DNA of 64,000 bases from Phycisphaerae bacterium (GTDB lineage: Bacteria; Planctomycetota; Phycisphaerae; Phycisphaerales; UBA1924): positions 622,001-686,000 of the forward strand of contig JAUIES010000002.1 in the NCBI GenBank assembly GCA_030429705.1, given 5' to 3'. The position numbers and the translations under genes were made by a program. A model generated the notes under the pieces. The model saw nothing but the letters and a program-made list of their open reading frames with translations. It searched no databases and had not been told where the DNA came from. Positions 2,034 through 9,996 of this stretch are shown here, one piece after another (the first letter of the stretch is position 1; each line of letters opens with the position of its first letter).

Positions 2034-2765
2034 TCAAGCTCGTATCACCGACTTGCTGCCTTGGCTCGCCACCACCAACGGTCTTCCCCACCCACACTCC
2101 GGACAGCCGGAGGCCGGGTCGCCCCCGAGGTCGTACGCACACTTCGGGCACAACCCCCGCTTGCGGCGGCGGCGGGCTCGCACCAACGGAACGCCGAACA
2201 TAGGGATCGCCCAGATCGCTGCAAAGAACCCGGTGTCGAGCAGGAGGCCCCGCCAGATCGGAAGCACCGGCAGGGCGTGAGGTGGCACGGTGCTCAGCAT
2301 CGTCTCGCCGCCCCATGTGAGCGGCAACGGGATACCGGCTCGCGTAATCGTTCCGTCCATGTGCTCATCCTCATAAGTCCACAGCGCTGGTACCGGGATG
2401 CCGAATGCCCACTCTCGGGTGCTGTCGAAAGTCCGCGCATTACTACGGCTTATTCGATCCTGGTCGGACAACCCCCAAGATGTGTCGATTGGCAGCCACT
2501 GATCGGGTGGCGGTGTCGATCGCAACGGGTTGATCAACCGAGGAACCCAGAGCGACTCACGCTCCACGCCCACGAGCCCGTGTGCTTCGTACACAACCAC
2601 AAACAGCCGCTCATCCGGCACTACAAACTTACGCGGAGCCGATGCGGTCATCTCAGGCCCCACCGACCCCCAGGCCGCAAACCCCCACGCCACCGCGACC
2701 GTCGAGATCAGCCCGAGCAGCAGGCAGAGAGCGATGCGCGTGATGAACTTGCGTCGAGTCATCAT
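2034..2765 (-). CDS. Zinc-ribbon membrane protein, tandem copy 3
   Basis: This 243-residue protein has one N-terminal transmembrane or signal segment (about residues 10-33), an extracytoplasmic domain, a second hydrophobic segment (about 170-195), a basic RARRRRKRG stretch and a C-terminal zinc ribbon, CPKCAYDLGGD...GCPECGWG. That ribbon is common in planctomycetal membrane proteins of unknown function. It is the last of three tandem paralogues on this strand, starting 9 bp after the previous copy's stop. Its first ~36 residues are almost identical to copy 2, while its last ~17 residues after the ribbon differ from both other copies. Function is unknown. Confidence 0.75.
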   Translation of the reverse strand: MMTRRKFITRIALCLLLGLISTVAVAWGFAAWGSVGPEMTASAPRKFVVPDERLFVVVYEAHGLVGVERESLWVPRLINPLRSTPPPDQWLPIDTSWGLSDQDRISRSNARTFDSTREWAFGIPVPALWTYEDEHMDGTITRAGIPLPLTWGGETMLSTVPPHALPVLPIWRGLLLDTGFFAAIWAIPMFGVPLVRARRRRKRGLCPKCAYDLGGDPASGCPECGWGRPLVVASQGSKSVIRA

Positions 2766-2774
2766 CCATGCAGT

Positions 2775-3500
2775 CTATGCGATGCCGGCATCTGTCCCAA
2801 GCGTCTTCTTCCCATCCCGCCCCCACCCGCACTCCGGGCAGCCGCTCGCCAAATCGCCGCCGAGGTCGTACGCGCAATTCGGGCACAGCCCCCGCTTGCG
2901 GCGGTGGCGGGCTCGCACGGCCGGAACACCAAACATCGGGATCGCCCAGATCGCTGCAAAGAACCCGGTGTCGAGCAGGAGGCCCCGCCAGATGGGATAA
3001 ATCGGTAGAGCTTGAGGGGCCGTGGTGTAAAACGCACTATTCTCGTTGTAGACAAATGGGAGATCAATGCCGGCTCGCTTGATAGTCCCGTCCACAGCTT
3101 CATCTTGATAGGTCCACAACGCTGGGAATGGCCACCCAAACGCCCATTCAATCGTAAACGCACAATCGCGATCATCGACGCGACGAGCTCGCGCCTGATC
3201 TGAGAGTCCCCAATGTGAGGCCATCGGCTGTTTTGCTGTGAGTGAAGATGAGTGATTATATGAGCCGACGGGAATCATCATCCATGAACCCCCACGCTCG
3301 ATGCCTGCGATGCCGACTTTTTTCCACGCATGATTCCAGGTCGATGTGCCCGAGTCAGGATTTTCATACAACACGAGTTGGACTGACCAAACTCCAACCG
3401 ACCCCCGGGCCGCGAACCCCCACGCCACCGCGACCGTCGAGATCAGCCCGAGCAGCAGGCAGAGAGCGATGCGCGTGATGAACTTGCGTCGAGTCATCAT
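2775..3500 (-). CDS. Zinc-ribbon membrane protein, tandem copy 2
   Basis: This 241-residue paralogue has the same plan as its neighbours: an N-terminal membrane anchor, a ~130-residue outer domain with a shared STREWAFG/TIEWAFG-like segment and an ALWTYQDE motif, a second hydrophobic segment (GLLLDTGFFAAIWAIPMFGV) and a C-terminal CPNCAYDLGGD...GCPECGWG ribbon. It ends GKKTLGTDAGIA, nearly the same as copy 1 (GKKSLGADAGIA), whereas its N-terminus matches copy 3. This mosaic pattern suggests recent duplication with gene conversion. It lies 9 bp after copy 1 and 9 bp before copy 3, so the three are probably co-transcribed. Function is unknown. Confidence 0.75.
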   Translation of the reverse strand: MMTRRKFITRIALCLLLGLISTVAVAWGFAARGSVGVWSVQLVLYENPDSGTSTWNHAWKKVGIAGIERGGSWMMIPVGSYNHSSSLTAKQPMASHWGLSDQARARRVDDRDCAFTIEWAFGWPFPALWTYQDEAVDGTIKRAGIDLPFVYNENSAFYTTAPQALPIYPIWRGLLLDTGFFAAIWAIPMFGVPAVRARHRRKRGLCPNCAYDLGGDLASGCPECGWGRDGKKTLGTDAGIA

Positions 3501-3509
3501 CCATGCAGT

Positions 3510-4232
3510 CTATGCGATGCCGGCATCGGCCCCAAGCGACTTCTTCCCATCCCGCCCCCACCCACACTCCGGGCAGCCGCTGTCCAAATCGCCGATGAGG
3601 TCGTAGGTGCACTTCGGGCACAGGCCCTTGTCCATGCGTTGTTTGGCCCGGATCGCGGGCACGCCAAACAGCACGAACCACCAGAGCCCGCCGAAGACCA
3701 GCGTGTTGACGATCAACCCGAACCAGGCCGGCGAGAGCGGCAGAGCGCGCGGCGGGATGGTCCGCAGTTTCGTCCCTTTGTAGAATGCGATCGGCACCGG
3801 TATCCCGCTTTGCTCGATGGTGCCCGCGGGGCCAATGTCCTGGTGCAACCAGAGCGCCGGCATGGGAAAGCCGAACGCCCACTCACGCGTGAGTTCATGC
3901 GCGTCGCTGGTGACCCGTTCAGCACGATCGTTCGCGGACAAGCCCCACGACGAACGCAAAGGCCCGAACTGCTCGGGCGACATGAGCGCTGCGTGTTCGG
4001 CCGGTGCCGTGCCACGCCAGTAGTTAAACCGTTGAACACCGCCGATGCCCTTGGTGACGAATGCATGGCCCCACAACTCGGTCTTGGGCACCGTAAAAAT
4101 CACCGACCCGCGCGTGGTGGATCGCACCCCCACCGACCCCCAGGCTGCGAACGACCACGCCACAAGCACGGTCGTCACCAGACCGAGCATCGCGCACACG
4201 GCGGTTCGCTTGATGAGTCGTGATCGTGGCAT
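3510..4232 (-). CDS. Zinc-ribbon membrane protein, tandem copy 1
   Basis: This is the first copy in transcription order, 240 residues long and the most diverged of the three. It has an N-terminal hydrophobic segment (about residues 9-32, AVCAMLGLVTTVLVAWSFAA), an outer domain with TREWAFGFPMPALWLHQD, a second membrane segment (about 172-192) and a CPKCTYDLIGDLDSGCPECGWG zinc ribbon. In this family the ribbon probably sits in the cytoplasm behind the second membrane segment, by the positive-inside pattern of the preceding KQRMDKG stretch. The gene lies 36 bp downstream of the stop of the HtrA-like pair's second member on the same strand. Function is unknown. Confidence 0.72.
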   Translation of the reverse strand: MPRSRLIKRTAVCAMLGLVTTVLVAWSFAAWGSVGVRSTTRGSVIFTVPKTELWGHAFVTKGIGGVQRFNYWRGTAPAEHAALMSPEQFGPLRSSWGLSANDRAERVTSDAHELTREWAFGFPMPALWLHQDIGPAGTIEQSGIPVPIAFYKGTKLRTIPPRALPLSPAWFGLIVNTLVFGGLWWFVLFGVPAIRAKQRMDKGLCPKCTYDLIGDLDSGCPECGWGRDGKKSLGADAGIA

Positions 4233-4268: not shown

Positions 4269-5057
4269 TCACTCTTCTTCATCTTCCAGACTGGCGAGAG
4301 CCGCAGCGGTGGCTTTGTGCACCTCGGCGGCGGGCAGCACGGTCTGTCCAAACACCATCTGCCCGAACATATTGGCTGAAATCGCTTCCATCTCTTCCTG
4401 CGTCGGTAGTTGCATCACAACCAGACCGAGCGGCTGACCTGACTCATTGAATACGGGCAGCCCCATGTTGACCTCGCCTGACGCGACGAACAGCGGCCGC
4501 GGCTTGGTGACGGTCGCTGCGACCTTGGCTTCACTGACATATGGGGCCCGGTCAAAGAATTTGTCGAGTTTCCAGACCTGCAGCATGGTCTGGCCGAGCG
4601 TCGCCTCGGCACCACTTGCAAAGTCGATCGACGGGAGGTCTTCTTCGACATCGTCCGTGATGCGCAGCCACGCCAGGTCGCGATCGCGGTCACGAACCAT
4701 CACTTCGGCAGCCATCCCTTCGGTGTCGTCACCGACGAAGACCTTGATATCACTCGGGCGCACCTGAAACCCCATGCCTTCGTAGCCGAACATGGAGGAA
4801 CTGGACAGAAGCACGATGCCGGACGCATCGATCAACACACCGGCCACTTCGTTCTCTTCGTTCATTTCTTCGCCGCCAAAGCCGCCATCGATACTCATGA
4901 CGAACTTGATATTGACGATGGCGGGGGCGGCTTTGGCCGCTACGAGTTCATACGGCGTCACCGGCCGCGCGAGAATGGTTTCCGCCTCGGTCGCAACGAA
5001 CGGGGTCTGGTTGTTCATGACGAGCGCGGCGGCGAGGGTCAGTGTTTGCAGAAACAT
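4269..5057 (-). CDS. HtrA-like protein lacking the catalytic triad (pseudoprotease)
   Basis: This 262-residue secreted protein has a short N-terminal hydrophobic segment and a trypsin/HtrA-type core without a PDZ domain. Against the active neighbour the core lines up as VLIDASGIVLL (80 region), DRDLAWLRI (127-133) and VNMGLPVFN (196-204). The catalytic His position is Ser (about S87), and the nucleophile Ser in GNSGGPL is Met (M198). Only the Asp of DLA remains. It is therefore predicted to be inactive as a protease. A strong ribosome site (AAGGA, 5-nt spacer) supports ATG 5057. It lies 81 bp after the HtrA stop on the same strand, which suggests co-expression and a regulatory or scaffold role, but that is inference. 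Confidence 0.75.
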   Translation of the reverse strand: MFLQTLTLAAALVMNNQTPFVATEAETILARPVTPYELVAAKAAPAIVNIKFVMSIDGGFGGEEMNEENEVAGVLIDASGIVLLSSSSMFGYEGMGFQVRPSDIKVFVGDDTEGMAAEVMVRDRDRDLAWLRITDDVEEDLPSIDFASGAEATLGQTMLQVWKLDKFFDRAPYVSEAKVAATVTKPRPLFVASGEVNMGLPVFNESGQPLGLVVMQLPTQEEMEAISANMFGQMVFGQTVLPAAEVHKATAAALASLEDEEE

Positions 5058-5138
5058 GGTATTCCTTCCTTGTTGAAGGCCCGCACAGCGCCAGGCCGGT
5101 TTGTACTTGAATCAATGCGACGCAGACAGACGAAGCCG

Positions 5139-7289
5139 TTACGGCGATGGGTCGTCCGTGTCGATCTGCGGCGACCACTCGGGCTCGACAAACTTGTACG
5201 ACACGCGGTTGCGGCGACGAACCTTGAACACCACGCGTTCGGACGCGGCCTCGGTGACCGCCTCCATCGCTTCGGTGTAACTCTTGGTCCCTTTCACCTC
5301 GTGCTCATCGATTGCGAGGATGATATCGCCATACGAGATCCCCCCCACCGATGCCCAGCCGCCTTCTTCGACCGATTCGACATACGCGCCCTTGAAATCA
5401 TCGTCGAGTTTCATGTTAACCCGATCGATGAAAGTCAGCGACCGTACGACCAGCCCGAAGTCTCGATTGCGGACACGGCGGGCCTGCTCGGGCGAAAGCG
5501 GGCTGCGCTCGAATGTCACGGGCAAGTCGATCGCTGCGCCATCCCGGTGGGCGGCCAGCGCGACTGTCTCGCCAATCGTCTGGAGTTTCACAGCCCGTTC
5601 GAAGGCGCCCGCCTGCTCGATCGCGTTCGGCTTGGTTTCAATATCACCAACCGCAGTAATGATGTCGCCAACCTGCAGGTCCGACATGGCCGCCATCGTC
5701 TGGGGATAGATGCGCGTCACGCGAAAACCGGTCGGGGTGCCGAGATGTTTGGCAAGTTCAGGGATGATCGGCTGCGTTTCGACACCCAGCCACGCCTTGG
5801 GTAGATCACGCGGCGGCGTGGCTGACTCGGGCGGCGTGGTATCGACAGCCGTCACCATCGCATCGCCCCAGCGGTCAAACTCGACGACGATGTATTCGGG
5901 TGCGTCGTCATCGCTCGAAATAGCGGTGTAGATCTCGACAAGTTCTCGAACGGTGGTCACCGCCGTGCCATGCACACTGTGGATAATGTCGCCGCCTTGC
6001 AGCGCGGGATCGGCCAGTTCGGCCGGCATGCCGCTGCGCGTTGAATCGATCCGCACGCCGTCACTCGAATCGAGCTGGTACATGCGAGCGGCATAAGGCG
6101 TGATATCAGACACGGTCAGCCCCCACTGCCGCAGCGAAACCGGGTCTGATTCATCGAGTTGGAGTTGATCGGTCGTGACCTCGATCGTGATCGAAGCGTC
6201 GCCGCGCCGGACGGCAAAGTTGACGAGCGTACCGACCGGCTGCGAAGCGATCGTGCGCAGAAGCGGCGGAATCTGCTCAGGAAACTTGATCGTGAGCGAC
6301 TGCCCGTTGACAGCGGTGACGAGGTCGCCCGCCTGCATGCCAGCCGCAGCCGCCGGGCCATCCGTATCGACCCAGTCTACGAAAACACCTTGGTCGTACC
6401 CGGTGCGTTCGAGATGCTTGAACCCGACACCGATCCAACTTCGGGCAACTTCGCCGTGTTCGCGCAGTTCTTCAGCCACGCCGCGGGCGATACTCGTTGG
6501 CGTGGCAAACCCATTGCCCTCGCCGCCGCGCGTGTTGACACCGATGACTTCGCCGGCCATATTGACCAACGGCCCGCCGGAGTTGCCTGGGTTGATCAAC
6601 GCATCATGTTGAATCCATGTCGTGAATAACCCCGTCCGCTGCATCGACCAGCCGAGATACAGTTGCTCGACCTGCCCTTCGCGTCCGCCGGTGAACACGC
6701 GATTCGGGTTGGAGACAATCCCCATCGTGACCGACCGATCAAGTGCAAAGGGCGAACCCATCGCCAGCACCATGTCGCCGGTCTGCACTTCGTCAGAGTT
6801 ACCGAGCACGGCTGTGGTGTACGGCCCTTCATCAGGATCAAGTTTGAGCAAAGCGAGATCGGTCCACGGGTCTTCGCCGATCAGTTTCGCTTCGACCCGC
6901 CGCTTGTCAGCGAGAATGCAATAAAACTTGCGTCCTTCATCGGTGACATGGGCGTTCGTCAGGACATGCCCGCTTGCATCGATGATGGTCCCCGACCCGG
7001 TTGACATGCTCTTGACTTCCTGCCCGTACATGTTCGACGCGGTGTGGACCTCGACATGCACGAGTGCTGGAAACACCGCATCGCGGGCACTGGCGACGAA
7101 CTGACGCATGTCGGCCCGCATTGTGGACAGATCCGCGTCCGCCGTCACTTGAGCGGTTGTCGATGACGACACGACCAATGAAGAAAGGACGAGGACAGCC
7201 GCTCCGAATCGATGACGGGTGGATCCAATCTGCCAGTTCCTCACAAACCCTCTGAACTGATTCCTGGAACTGGTTATCCTGTTGGTCAT
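5139..7289 (-). CDS. HtrA/Deg-family serine protease with four PDZ-like repeats
   Basis: This 716-residue periplasmic or envelope serine endoprotease starts at ATG 7289, preceded by AAAGG with a 5-nt spacer. The frame is open much further upstream but that part is antisense to the next gene. Residues about 28-50 are a signal peptide with a long basic N-region. The trypsin-like domain has an intact triad: H114 (TNAHV), D144 (TDLALL) and S237 (PGNSGGPL). Four PDZ-like units follow at about 284-375, 390-490, 510-610 and 630-710, each with a GD(I/L)I-type carboxylate-loop segment. DegP and DegQ have two, DegS one. Such proteases degrade or refold damaged envelope proteins. The following gene encodes an inactive paralogue. 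Its start overlaps that of the divergent + gene. Confidence 0.9.
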   Translation of the reverse strand: MTNRITSSRNQFRGFVRNWQIGSTRHRFGAAVLVLSSLVVSSSTTAQVTADADLSTMRADMRQFVASARDAVFPALVHVEVHTASNMYGQEVKSMSTGSGTIIDASGHVLTNAHVTDEGRKFYCILADKRRVEAKLIGEDPWTDLALLKLDPDEGPYTTAVLGNSDEVQTGDMVLAMGSPFALDRSVTMGIVSNPNRVFTGGREGQVEQLYLGWSMQRTGLFTTWIQHDALINPGNSGGPLVNMAGEVIGVNTRGGEGNGFATPTSIARGVAEELREHGEVARSWIGVGFKHLERTGYDQGVFVDWVDTDGPAAAAGMQAGDLVTAVNGQSLTIKFPEQIPPLLRTIASQPVGTLVNFAVRRGDASITIEVTTDQLQLDESDPVSLRQWGLTVSDITPYAARMYQLDSSDGVRIDSTRSGMPAELADPALQGGDIIHSVHGTAVTTVRELVEIYTAISSDDDAPEYIVVEFDRWGDAMVTAVDTTPPESATPPRDLPKAWLGVETQPIIPELAKHLGTPTGFRVTRIYPQTMAAMSDLQVGDIITAVGDIETKPNAIEQAGAFERAVKLQTIGETVALAAHRDGAAIDLPVTFERSPLSPEQARRVRNRDFGLVVRSLTFIDRVNMKLDDDFKGAYVESVEEGGWASVGGISYGDIILAIDEHEVKGTKSYTEAMEAVTEAASERVVFKVRRRNRVSYKFVEPEWSPQIDTDDPSP

Positions 7290-9996
7290 GTTGACCTTTC
7301 TTTCTGCGTGTTTGCTTTCAATAGCCGCTTGTGCATCATCGATCCCGCCCGGATACGAACAGGGGGCAACCCTACGAGTGTACGAGATCGGGCTCCCACT
7401 GCAAGCGATTCCTGAACTCGTGCCAGACCAGACACCCAATGTGGACTTGTTGGTCGATGCCATCAACTTCCAGAACGCCGCCGACTTTGGCGGACAAGCC
7501 CAACGGTTCTTCGCCGAGGTCATCGGTTCATTCTGGATCGAAACCCCCGGGCAGTACACCTTTGCGCTCACCAGCGACGACGGTTCGCGGCTCACCATTA
7601 ATGGCGAGCAGATCATCGACAACGACGGCGTGCACCCACCGGAACGGGTTGATGGCAAGGTCAACCTCAAAGCGGGCGCCCATCCGTTCAAAATCGAGTT
7701 CTTTGAACACGAGGGTGGAGAGATGCTGCGGCTCGAGTGGCGACCGCCAGGCGCAGACCAATTCTCCATCGTTCCGACGACAGCGCTACTCACCGAAGCG
7801 GGCGTGACACGCGTTGTCGCACCTGGATACAAGCGTATCACTGGCGCAGCGGGCGTGCTGCGACCTGGGTGGGGCATGCCGCTTGACACGGTCCATCCTG
7901 CGTTCGAGGTCACCACGATCCGTCCAGAAGAATTCAAGCCACAAGTCGGAGGCATGACACTGTCACCGGGTGGCACGCTGTATTTCACAACATTCAAGCC
8001 AAACCAGAACGGTTGGCAGGACGGCTTGCGCGAGCTGCCTGATGGCGTCGTGTGGCGCGTCAAAAACCCGAAAGCACCTCGCGATGAGATCGTCATTGAG
8101 CGTGCATCAAGCAGTTCCTATTACGAACCCGCCGGACTGGCATGGATGGATGGAAGCCTGTTCCTCTCGACACGCAACGAGATCACACAGCTGCTTGACT
8201 CCAACAACGATGGCTCGTTCAACACGAGGATTCGCGTCGCCCAGGGTTGGATCTCGGACAACTATCATCATTTCACTTTCGGCCTCACGCCTCGCAACGG
8301 CAAGTTGTACGCTGCACTCTCCACAGCAATCGCACTCGATGGACAAGAACGACAGAAGTACGGCTATGTCGGTCTCAATGGCCCGAATCCTCCCAATCGC
8401 GGCACACTCGTTGAGATTGAACCGAAGACGGGGGCCGTGAACCATTTGGCAGGCGGTTTCCGCACGCCAAATGGCATCGGCATCGGACCGAACGACGAGA
8501 TTCTTGTTTCTGACAATCAGGGTTCCTGGAATCCGTCCAACAGCCTGTACGCTGTCAAACCCGGTCGTTTTTACGGGCACTACAACTCGACCAAGAAGGG
8601 CGTACGGTATCCAGAGGGGGGCAATCCAGGCCCGTTTGAAGATCAGCCGGTGTCGCCTCCTGCAATTATCCTGCCGCAGTCGGAAGTCGCCAACTCACCG
8701 ACCACGCCGGCTGTCATCCCCACCGGTCCGTTCGCGGGTCAGGTCTATCTCGGTGAACTCACCGCCGGCGGTATTCGACGCGTTTTTCTAGAACAGGTCA
8801 ATGGTGAAACCCAGGGCGCGGTGTTCCGTTTCACACAGGGTCTTGAGTGCGGCGTAAACCGACTCGTTGTCGCGCCCGATGGCACGATTTACATCGGTGG
8901 TACAGGAGCCAACGGAAACTGGAACTGGCGCGGCACAACCTACGGGTTGCAACGACTCGACCCCAAGCCTGATGCCGACTGGCCGTTCGAGATGCACCGC
9001 ATCGAAGCCATCCCAGGCGGATTCCGCATCACCATGACCGAACCGGCGAACGCAGACCAACTGAGCGACCCCGAGACCTATCGCGTGCGACAGTGGTACG
9101 AAACCCCGACTGAAGAATATGGCGGGGCCAAACGCGAACTCGAGTCCATCGCCGTCGAGTCGGTGTCAGTCAGTCAAGACGGGCGATCGGTCGAGCTGCT
9201 CATGCCCGACCTCAGGCCCGGCCGCGTGGTCCATATCACGCTCGATCTTGAGTCGGCAACTGGCGATGAACTTTGGTCCAACGAAGCGTGGTACACACTC
9301 AACCAAATGCCGATCGCCGAGAGCCATCCCGATTTCGCCTCGCGTGTACTCGTTTTTTCAAAGACCGCCGGCTTTCGGCACGGCTCGATCGGTGCGGGTG
9401 TGGCTGCTGTGCAATCACTCGGCGACATTCACGAATTCGATGTGCACGCGACCGAGGATGCCTCATATTTTAACGATTCGGTCCTCTCCCGATACGACGC
9501 GGTTGTTTTCCTCAACACCACCGGTGATGTGCTCAATGACGAACAACAAGCGTCTTTCGAACGCTACATTCGCAGCGGCGGCGGATTCGTCGGCATTCAT
9601 TCAGCGACCGACACCGAGTACGACTGGCCTTGGTACGGCCGCCTCGTCGGTGCCTACTTCAAGGGTCACCCCCCCGTTCAGAACGCCACCATTCATGTCA
9701 TCGACTGCGACCATCCGTCAACCGCACATCTCGACGAAACATGGCAGCGACGCGACGAGTGGTACAACTTTCGAGACCAGCCCAAAGGTGTTCGGGTCCT
9801 CGCAGAGTTGGACGGCGACTCCTACAACGGCAACACCATGGACCCACACCCGATCGTGTGGTGCCACGAGTTTGATGGAGGCCGGGCGTTCTACACGGTC
9901 GGCGGCCATACCAGCGAATCGTTCGCCGAACCGGCGTTCCTGCAACATCTGCTTGGAGCGATCAAGTGGGCAATGGGAGGCGATGTTCAGCCTTGA
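7288..9996 (+). CDS. Secreted PA14 / beta-propeller / ThuA-domain protein
   Basis: This 902-residue protein starts at ATG 7288; a TTG two codons earlier is possible. The N-terminus is hydrophobic with an SIAAC lipobox-like site at residue ~15, so it is probably an exported lipoprotein. Domains in order are PA14 (about 60-155, with FALTSDDGSRL and the closing RLEWRPPG), a glucose/sorbosone-dehydrogenase-like beta-propeller (about 165-560, with GGMTLSPGGTLYFTTF, GFRTPNGIGIG and LVVAPDGTIYIGG), an Ig-like linker, and a ThuA-type glutamine-amidotransferase-like domain (about 675-900, with FSKTAGFRHGS, GGGFVGIHSATD and the late HPIVWCHEF). PA14 and ThuA domains are associated with carbohydrate binding or sugar metabolism in planctomycetes; the exact substrate is unknown. 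It converges on the DUF1501 gene with a 17-bp gap. Confidence 0.85.
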   Translation: MLTFLSACLLSIAACASSIPPGYEQGATLRVYEIGLPLQAIPELVPDQTPNVDLLVDAINFQNAADFGGQAQRFFAEVIGSFWIETPGQYTFALTSDDGSRLTINGEQIIDNDGVHPPERVDGKVNLKAGAHPFKIEFFEHEGGEMLRLEWRPPGADQFSIVPTTALLTEAGVTRVVAPGYKRITGAAGVLRPGWGMPLDTVHPAFEVTTIRPEEFKPQVGGMTLSPGGTLYFTTFKPNQNGWQDGLRELPDGVVWRVKNPKAPRDEIVIERASSSSYYEPAGLAWMDGSLFLSTRNEITQLLDSNNDGSFNTRIRVAQGWISDNYHHFTFGLTPRNGKLYAALSTAIALDGQERQKYGYVGLNGPNPPNRGTLVEIEPKTGAVNHLAGGFRTPNGIGIGPNDEILVSDNQGSWNPSNSLYAVKPGRFYGHYNSTKKGVRYPEGGNPGPFEDQPVSPPAIILPQSEVANSPTTPAVIPTGPFAGQVYLGELTAGGIRRVFLEQVNGETQGAVFRFTQGLECGVNRLVVAPDGTIYIGGTGANGNWNWRGTTYGLQRLDPKPDADWPFEMHRIEAIPGGFRITMTEPANADQLSDPETYRVRQWYETPTEEYGGAKRELESIAVESVSVSQDGRSVELLMPDLRPGRVVHITLDLESATGDELWSNEAWYTLNQMPIAESHPDFASRVLVFSKTAGFRHGSIGAGVAAVQSLGDIHEFDVHATEDASYFNDSVLSRYDAVVFLNTTGDVLNDEQQASFERYIRSGGGFVGIHSATDTEYDWPWYGRLVGAYFKGHPPVQNATIHVIDCDHPSTAHLDETWQRRDEWYNFRDQPKGVRVLAELDGDSYNGNTMDPHPIVWCHEFDGGRAFYTVGGHTSESFAEPAFLQHLLGAIKWAMGGDVQP

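Follow-up and report, generated by a model that had tools for sequence, protein, structure and literature searches.

A catalytically dead HtrA paralogue conserved with an active HtrA in Planctomycetota and Acidobacteriota

Introduction

HtrA proteases are usually treated as homo-oligomers under the control of their own PDZ domains. Why, then, would a genome carry a protease of this fold without its catalytic residues directly behind an intact one? The question is raised by a stretch of 64,000 nucleotides (hereafter the window) from a bacterium of the Phycisphaerales (Planctomycetota), in which a gene for an active HtrA (hereafter A) is followed by a gene for an inactive paralogue (hereafter P). 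An initial annotation, made from the window's sequence alone, proposed that selection keeps P as a non-enzymatic partner, inhibitor or sensor. Here, we examine the locus, its relatives and the readings that they allow.

Results

P is an uninterrupted open reading frame on the minus strand (4269..5057), with an ATG start and a product of 262 amino acids, a catalytically dead HtrA-type protease domain without PDZ domains. A lies immediately upstream on the same strand (5139..7289) and encodes, from the chosen ATG, 716 amino acids comprising a protease domain with intact His, Asp and Ser and four PDZ domains. The two genes are 81 bp apart (5058..5138, minus strand; the stop of A is at 5139), as annotated, and the strong ribosome site ascribed to P is likewise present as a Shine-Dalgarno-like AAGGAAGGA (5063..5071, minus strand) just before its ATG. 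A consensus scan of the 81-bp gap found no sigma-70-type promoter or intrinsic terminator, which is compatible with a single transcript, and A and P are probably cotranscribed. The annotated signal sequence stood only in part: P has a signal-like N-terminus, but the copy in the window lacks the N-terminal positive charge, and the signals of its homologues are more typical.

Several other features surround the pair. Directly downstream of P lie three tandem paralogues on the minus strand (2034-2765, 2775-3500 and 3510-4232, within 2034-4232; 243, 241 and 240 amino acids) with a hydrophobic N-terminal segment and a zinc-ribbon-like CPxC...CPEC motif at the C-terminus, and beyond them a tandem repeat (1619-1909; 14 copies of 21 bp, or 5.3 of 42 bp at 94%) whose frames are open on both strands. 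A large plus-strand reading frame of 904 amino acids (7282-9996), PA14-/ThuA-like by eye, adjoins A divergently, and a similar divergent frame accompanies the A-P pair at locus L041. Elsewhere in the same genome are two further trypsin-fold proteins (L004, G000:C4:1038223-1041498; L005, 1005072-1008572) with motifs TAAHV/NDSGGP and TAGHC/GGDSGAP, apparently active and unrelated to the A-P pair.

The AlphaFold2 model of P, built with 52 sequences as input, had a mean pLDDT of 89.7. In a Foldseek comparison of this model with the PDB, the protease domains of DegS, HtrA1 and DegP ranked first (E 3e-11), with query TM-scores of about 0.5-0.6, and a profile of P orthologues matched HtrA structures by sequence (E 6e-8); a PDB search with the single P sequence returned nothing related. 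As modelled, P has the chymotrypsin/HtrA protease fold of family S1C. Against the Trypsin_2 profile (PF13365) the window's P scores 23.0 bits, below the cut-off of 27.6, and 46 of 52 P orthologues match the profile at E<=0.01. P falls far short of the NCBIfam model degP_htrA_DO (TIGR02037; 15.2 bits against a cut-off of 416.2), and no other Pfam domain in it exceeds its cut-off.

P lacks the GNSGG-type His-Asp-Ser triad of active S1C proteases. Alignment with A and 51 orthologues places S87 (4797..4799, minus strand) at the position of the catalytic His; by alignment, M198 (4464..4466, minus strand) replaces the catalytic Ser and D127 (4677..4679, minus strand) retains the Asp position, where 80 of 136 segments of P have D. 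These are the substitutions that had been read from the window. The accompanying statement that the fold-defining segments remain needs qualification: the HtrA fold is kept, but P is missing about 25 residues corresponding to the L3 loop of A and its strand into GNSGG, and judging from HtrA structures its oxyanion hole would be unable to form in the usual way. A conserved FF in P (residues 167-168) falls in the region aligned with the SPF segment of A, which is no more than suggestive of trimeric assembly. P also stops at the end of its protease domain, where active HtrA proteases continue into C-terminal PDZ domains.

The loss of catalytic residues extends well beyond the window. In 136 segments of P, drawn from Planctomycetota and Acidobacteriota, His and Ser never occur together, whereas His, Asp and Ser are all present in 110 of 110 segments of active partners, and the His and Ser columns of P each hold more than 10 residue types. 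Since MAFFT misplaced the His column in divergent P proteins, the sequences were also read directly. Three P proteins with Ser in the catalytic column have neither a GxSGG motif nor the His.

We searched 163 genomes of the window's family for both genes. P matched at E<=0.001 in 54 of the 163, one of which (G130) proved to be an ordinary HtrA and was excluded, leaving 53 genomes with P. Two of these matches are cut by contig ends, P is intact in most of the 53, and all the orthologues are inactive where readable, which excludes chance. Both catalytic losses recur across relatives that carry the pair, a check that the initial annotation had proposed; no frame-breaking mutation was found in sister genomes and no alignment restored an intact triad.

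A full-length, four-PDZ A is present in 54 of the 163 genomes. In the survey, 52 genomes have both genes, 2 have A only, 1 has P only and 108 have neither (Fisher p 5e-39, uncorrected for phylogeny and inflated by shared ancestry). Many genomes in the survey are incomplete drafts. The three exceptions to pairing are G108 (A only), in which about 320 bp of contig follow A, and the incomplete assemblies G178 and G097. In genera g62 and g33, A and P are jointly present or jointly absent. In about 35 of the 53 genomes P follows A directly on the same strand, with gaps of 20-296 bp in the linked loci that were read; in 18 it is placed otherwise. Some 17 genomes keep both genes though unlinked; where these were read, an intact A lies elsewhere in the genome. 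No third gene recurs next to the pair among the neighbours compared, and the conserved unit is A and P alone. Long reading frames covering A and P at L061 and L079 were rejected as fusions, being overlaps in different frames.

Selection on P resembles that on its partner. Across 14 close pairs the dN/dS of P was 0.07-0.30 (Nei-Gojobori), well below 1 and close to the 0.07-0.24 obtained for A in 12 of the same pairs, in agreement with the proposal that selection keeps P. Nine residues are invariant in P (K51, E70, G80, R122, D123, W130, P186, R187 and G211), and they mostly differ from the invariants of active HtrA. That P has invariant residues of its own suggests that it has taken on a new function and is not drifting under relaxed constraint.

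Comparison of loci revealed two types of pair, one in which A has four PDZ domains and P none (A4-P0, as in the window) and one in which each has two (A2-P2). The latter, with A2 followed by a dead P2, occurs in some families of the Phycisphaerae and elsewhere in the phylum; its 14 loci were located via P2 and are not an unbiased count. Both types occur together in several genomes (G655, G683, G569 and G539). A reading frame of 1210 amino acids at L197 was rejected as an A2-P2 fusion: A2 seems to be frame-shifted near its end, and P2 has its own start and signal peptide. At loci L232 and L233 an active HtrA neighbours a weakly scoring P2-like gene in another gene order; these loci may represent a remoter form of the pair.

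The A-P pair extends to other families of the class and widely through Planctomycetota, and it is also found in Acidobacteriota/Thermoanaerobaculia (L130, L148 and L149); at L141, also from Acidobacteriota, the stretch examined includes P but not A. A contig scan with the single P protein found no relatives, and an alignment query found them. Outside the class, P0 lies immediately downstream at 16 of 16 A4 loci read, all of them located via PDZ3-4 of A and not via P. Some loci carry more than one P after a single A, namely two at L059/L134, L123 and L200 and four at L209, where the four P0 genes stand in a row behind one A4 (L209:2530-8498); here the dead partner has expanded in tandem.

In a tree of protease domains, P0 and P2 form one clade (100/100) with long branches, and A4 and A2 form another (100/98). 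The PDZ domains follow a different pattern. PDZ-pair trees relate PDZ1-2 of A (5802..6443, minus strand) to the pair of the active A2, and PDZ3-4 (5142..5801, minus strand) to the pair of the dead P2. Without DegP, A4 PDZ3-4 group with the P2 pair (100/100) and A4 PDZ1-2 with A2 rather than with PDZ3-4. With canonical DegP outgroups, A-type pairs split from the rest at 99/98, and P2 joins A4 PDZ3-4 at 97/80 if one long DegP row is included, the strict group receiving 78/74. On these trees, which fit a move in either direction, a PDZ pair seems to have changed sides between P and A; given the 78/74 of the strict group, the pattern could also have arisen if a DegP-type PDZ pair was gained independently. 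A switch of partners by a PDZ pair would make little sense if the two proteins worked apart, and it argues for a common assembly.

Discussion

We consider it probable that P serves A specifically, as a subunit without catalysis of its own or as a regulator. The two proteins would be made from neighbouring genes, exported, and act jointly in the cell envelope. Having kept the HtrA fold and lost the His, the Ser and the L3/oxyanion segment, P would be unable to cut; most likely it would join A in mixed oligomers, or dock on it, and set A's choice of substrate or its activity. We infer physical contact between A and P in a mixed envelope complex in which P modulates A, and its effect could be activating, inhibiting or recruiting. 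Among the roles first proposed, that of partner has better support than that of inhibitor or sensor, given that the two genes occur together without linkage as well and that a PDZ pair apparently moved between the proteins.

Other explanations account for parts of these data. P might be a free-standing envelope protein that binds a metal, a peptide or a cell-wall ligand and is required in the same stress response as A without touching it. Such a binder would fit the invariants K51, E70, R122, D123, W130, P186, R187 and G211, which are mostly not those of active HtrA, the roughly 17 genomes in which P is unlinked from A, and the finding that metal binding by MamO is independent of its effect on MamE (PMC4794232). 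We regard it as unlikely, however: co-occurrence holds without linkage, P is tied to A4 and A2 and not to other HtrAs, and the apparent PDZ exchange runs between these very proteins. Less likely again is a dedicated inhibitor that, for example, blocks assembly of the A trimer or fills subunit positions in it. The L3 loop and oxyanion segment that P lacks are used in cross-activation between HtrA subunits, so that P would presumably be unable to relay activation in a mixed trimer; but MamO, the known bacterial case, promotes proteolysis, and the two to four P genes behind one A at some loci are more easily explained as alternative adaptors.

An enzymatically active P, its catalytic apparatus moved elsewhere or of another kind, seems very unlikely. 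Several invariant residues of P are polar (K51, E70, R122, D123 and R187), which speaks for this reading, yet the His and Ser positions vary freely among more than 10 residue types each and the oxyanion segment is deleted. We reject the reading of P as a pseudogene, a copy of A in decay: although its catalytic residues are lost, P is intact in most of the 53 family genomes and in another phylum, its dN/dS is well below 1, and it forms one ancient clade. Returning to P as a non-catalytic partner of A, we tentatively go one step further, to a possibility that we hold at somewhat less than even: A and P may together form an ancient HtrA machine of two subunits, an active and a dead one, that divide catalysis and regulation between them; it would be widespread in Planctomycetota and extend to Acidobacteriota. 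PDZ domains would have been redistributed as 2+2 or 4+0 with the total of four kept, so that the conserved unit would be the assembled complex.

Such a pair would make it possible to test whether HtrA quality control in some phyla works through mixed oligomers, and the exchanged PDZ pair yields a specific prediction for the position of the additional PDZ domains within the complex. Many proteins in these phyla that automatic annotation may name 'trypsin-like peptidase' are not peptidases. Many PDZ proteins have been reported from planctomycetes (PMC6411480), and a text search of that paper found no mention of 'inactive' or 'four PDZ'. We found no description of the A-P pair in the open-access papers searched, a search outside which most subscription papers fall.

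Compared with known HtrA proteases, P shares its fold with the protease domains of DegS, DegP and HtrA1 (MEROPS S1C) and differs in having neither the triad His and Ser nor a PDZ domain. Members of the family have 0-3 PDZ domains, Deg5 having none (PMC3640471), whereas A has four, of which PDZ3-4 group with the pair of the dead paralogue. Arabidopsis Deg5 resembles P as a PDZ-less HtrA that shares a compartment with the PDZ-bearing Deg8 (PMC3640471). Deg5 keeps its triad and P does not. Deg5 and Deg8 are not known to be encoded as a gene pair or to have exchanged PDZ domains. Soluble pseudoproteases also occur outside this family, such as CspC and CspA of Clostridioides difficile, which have a subtilisin-type fold. 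Like the role proposed for P, theirs is regulatory, and unlike P they are germination regulators from outside the HtrA family (PMC12880746).

The closest parallel is MamE/MamO, where a single gene cluster likewise encodes an active HtrA and a pseudoprotease of the HtrA fold, and where the inactive MamO is reported to be required for MamE-dependent proteolysis; according to the same study, such pairing evolved separately in three magnetotactic groups (PMC4794232). P shares with MamO the pairing of an inactive with an active HtrA. MamO has a C-terminal transporter domain, a surface di-histidine metal motif and a role in magnetite formation, whereas P ends at its protease domain or carries two PDZ domains, has no further Pfam domain over the cut-off and, in the window, contains one His in 262 residues (H247). 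P also belongs to its own Planctomycetota/Acidobacteriota clade, in a tree built without MamO, and its L3/oxyanion segment is deleted. The principle is known from MamE/MamO, and we believe the present pair, with its deep conservation and its exchange of domains, to be undescribed; a dead subunit kept for so long with one active partner would be a further case beside it.
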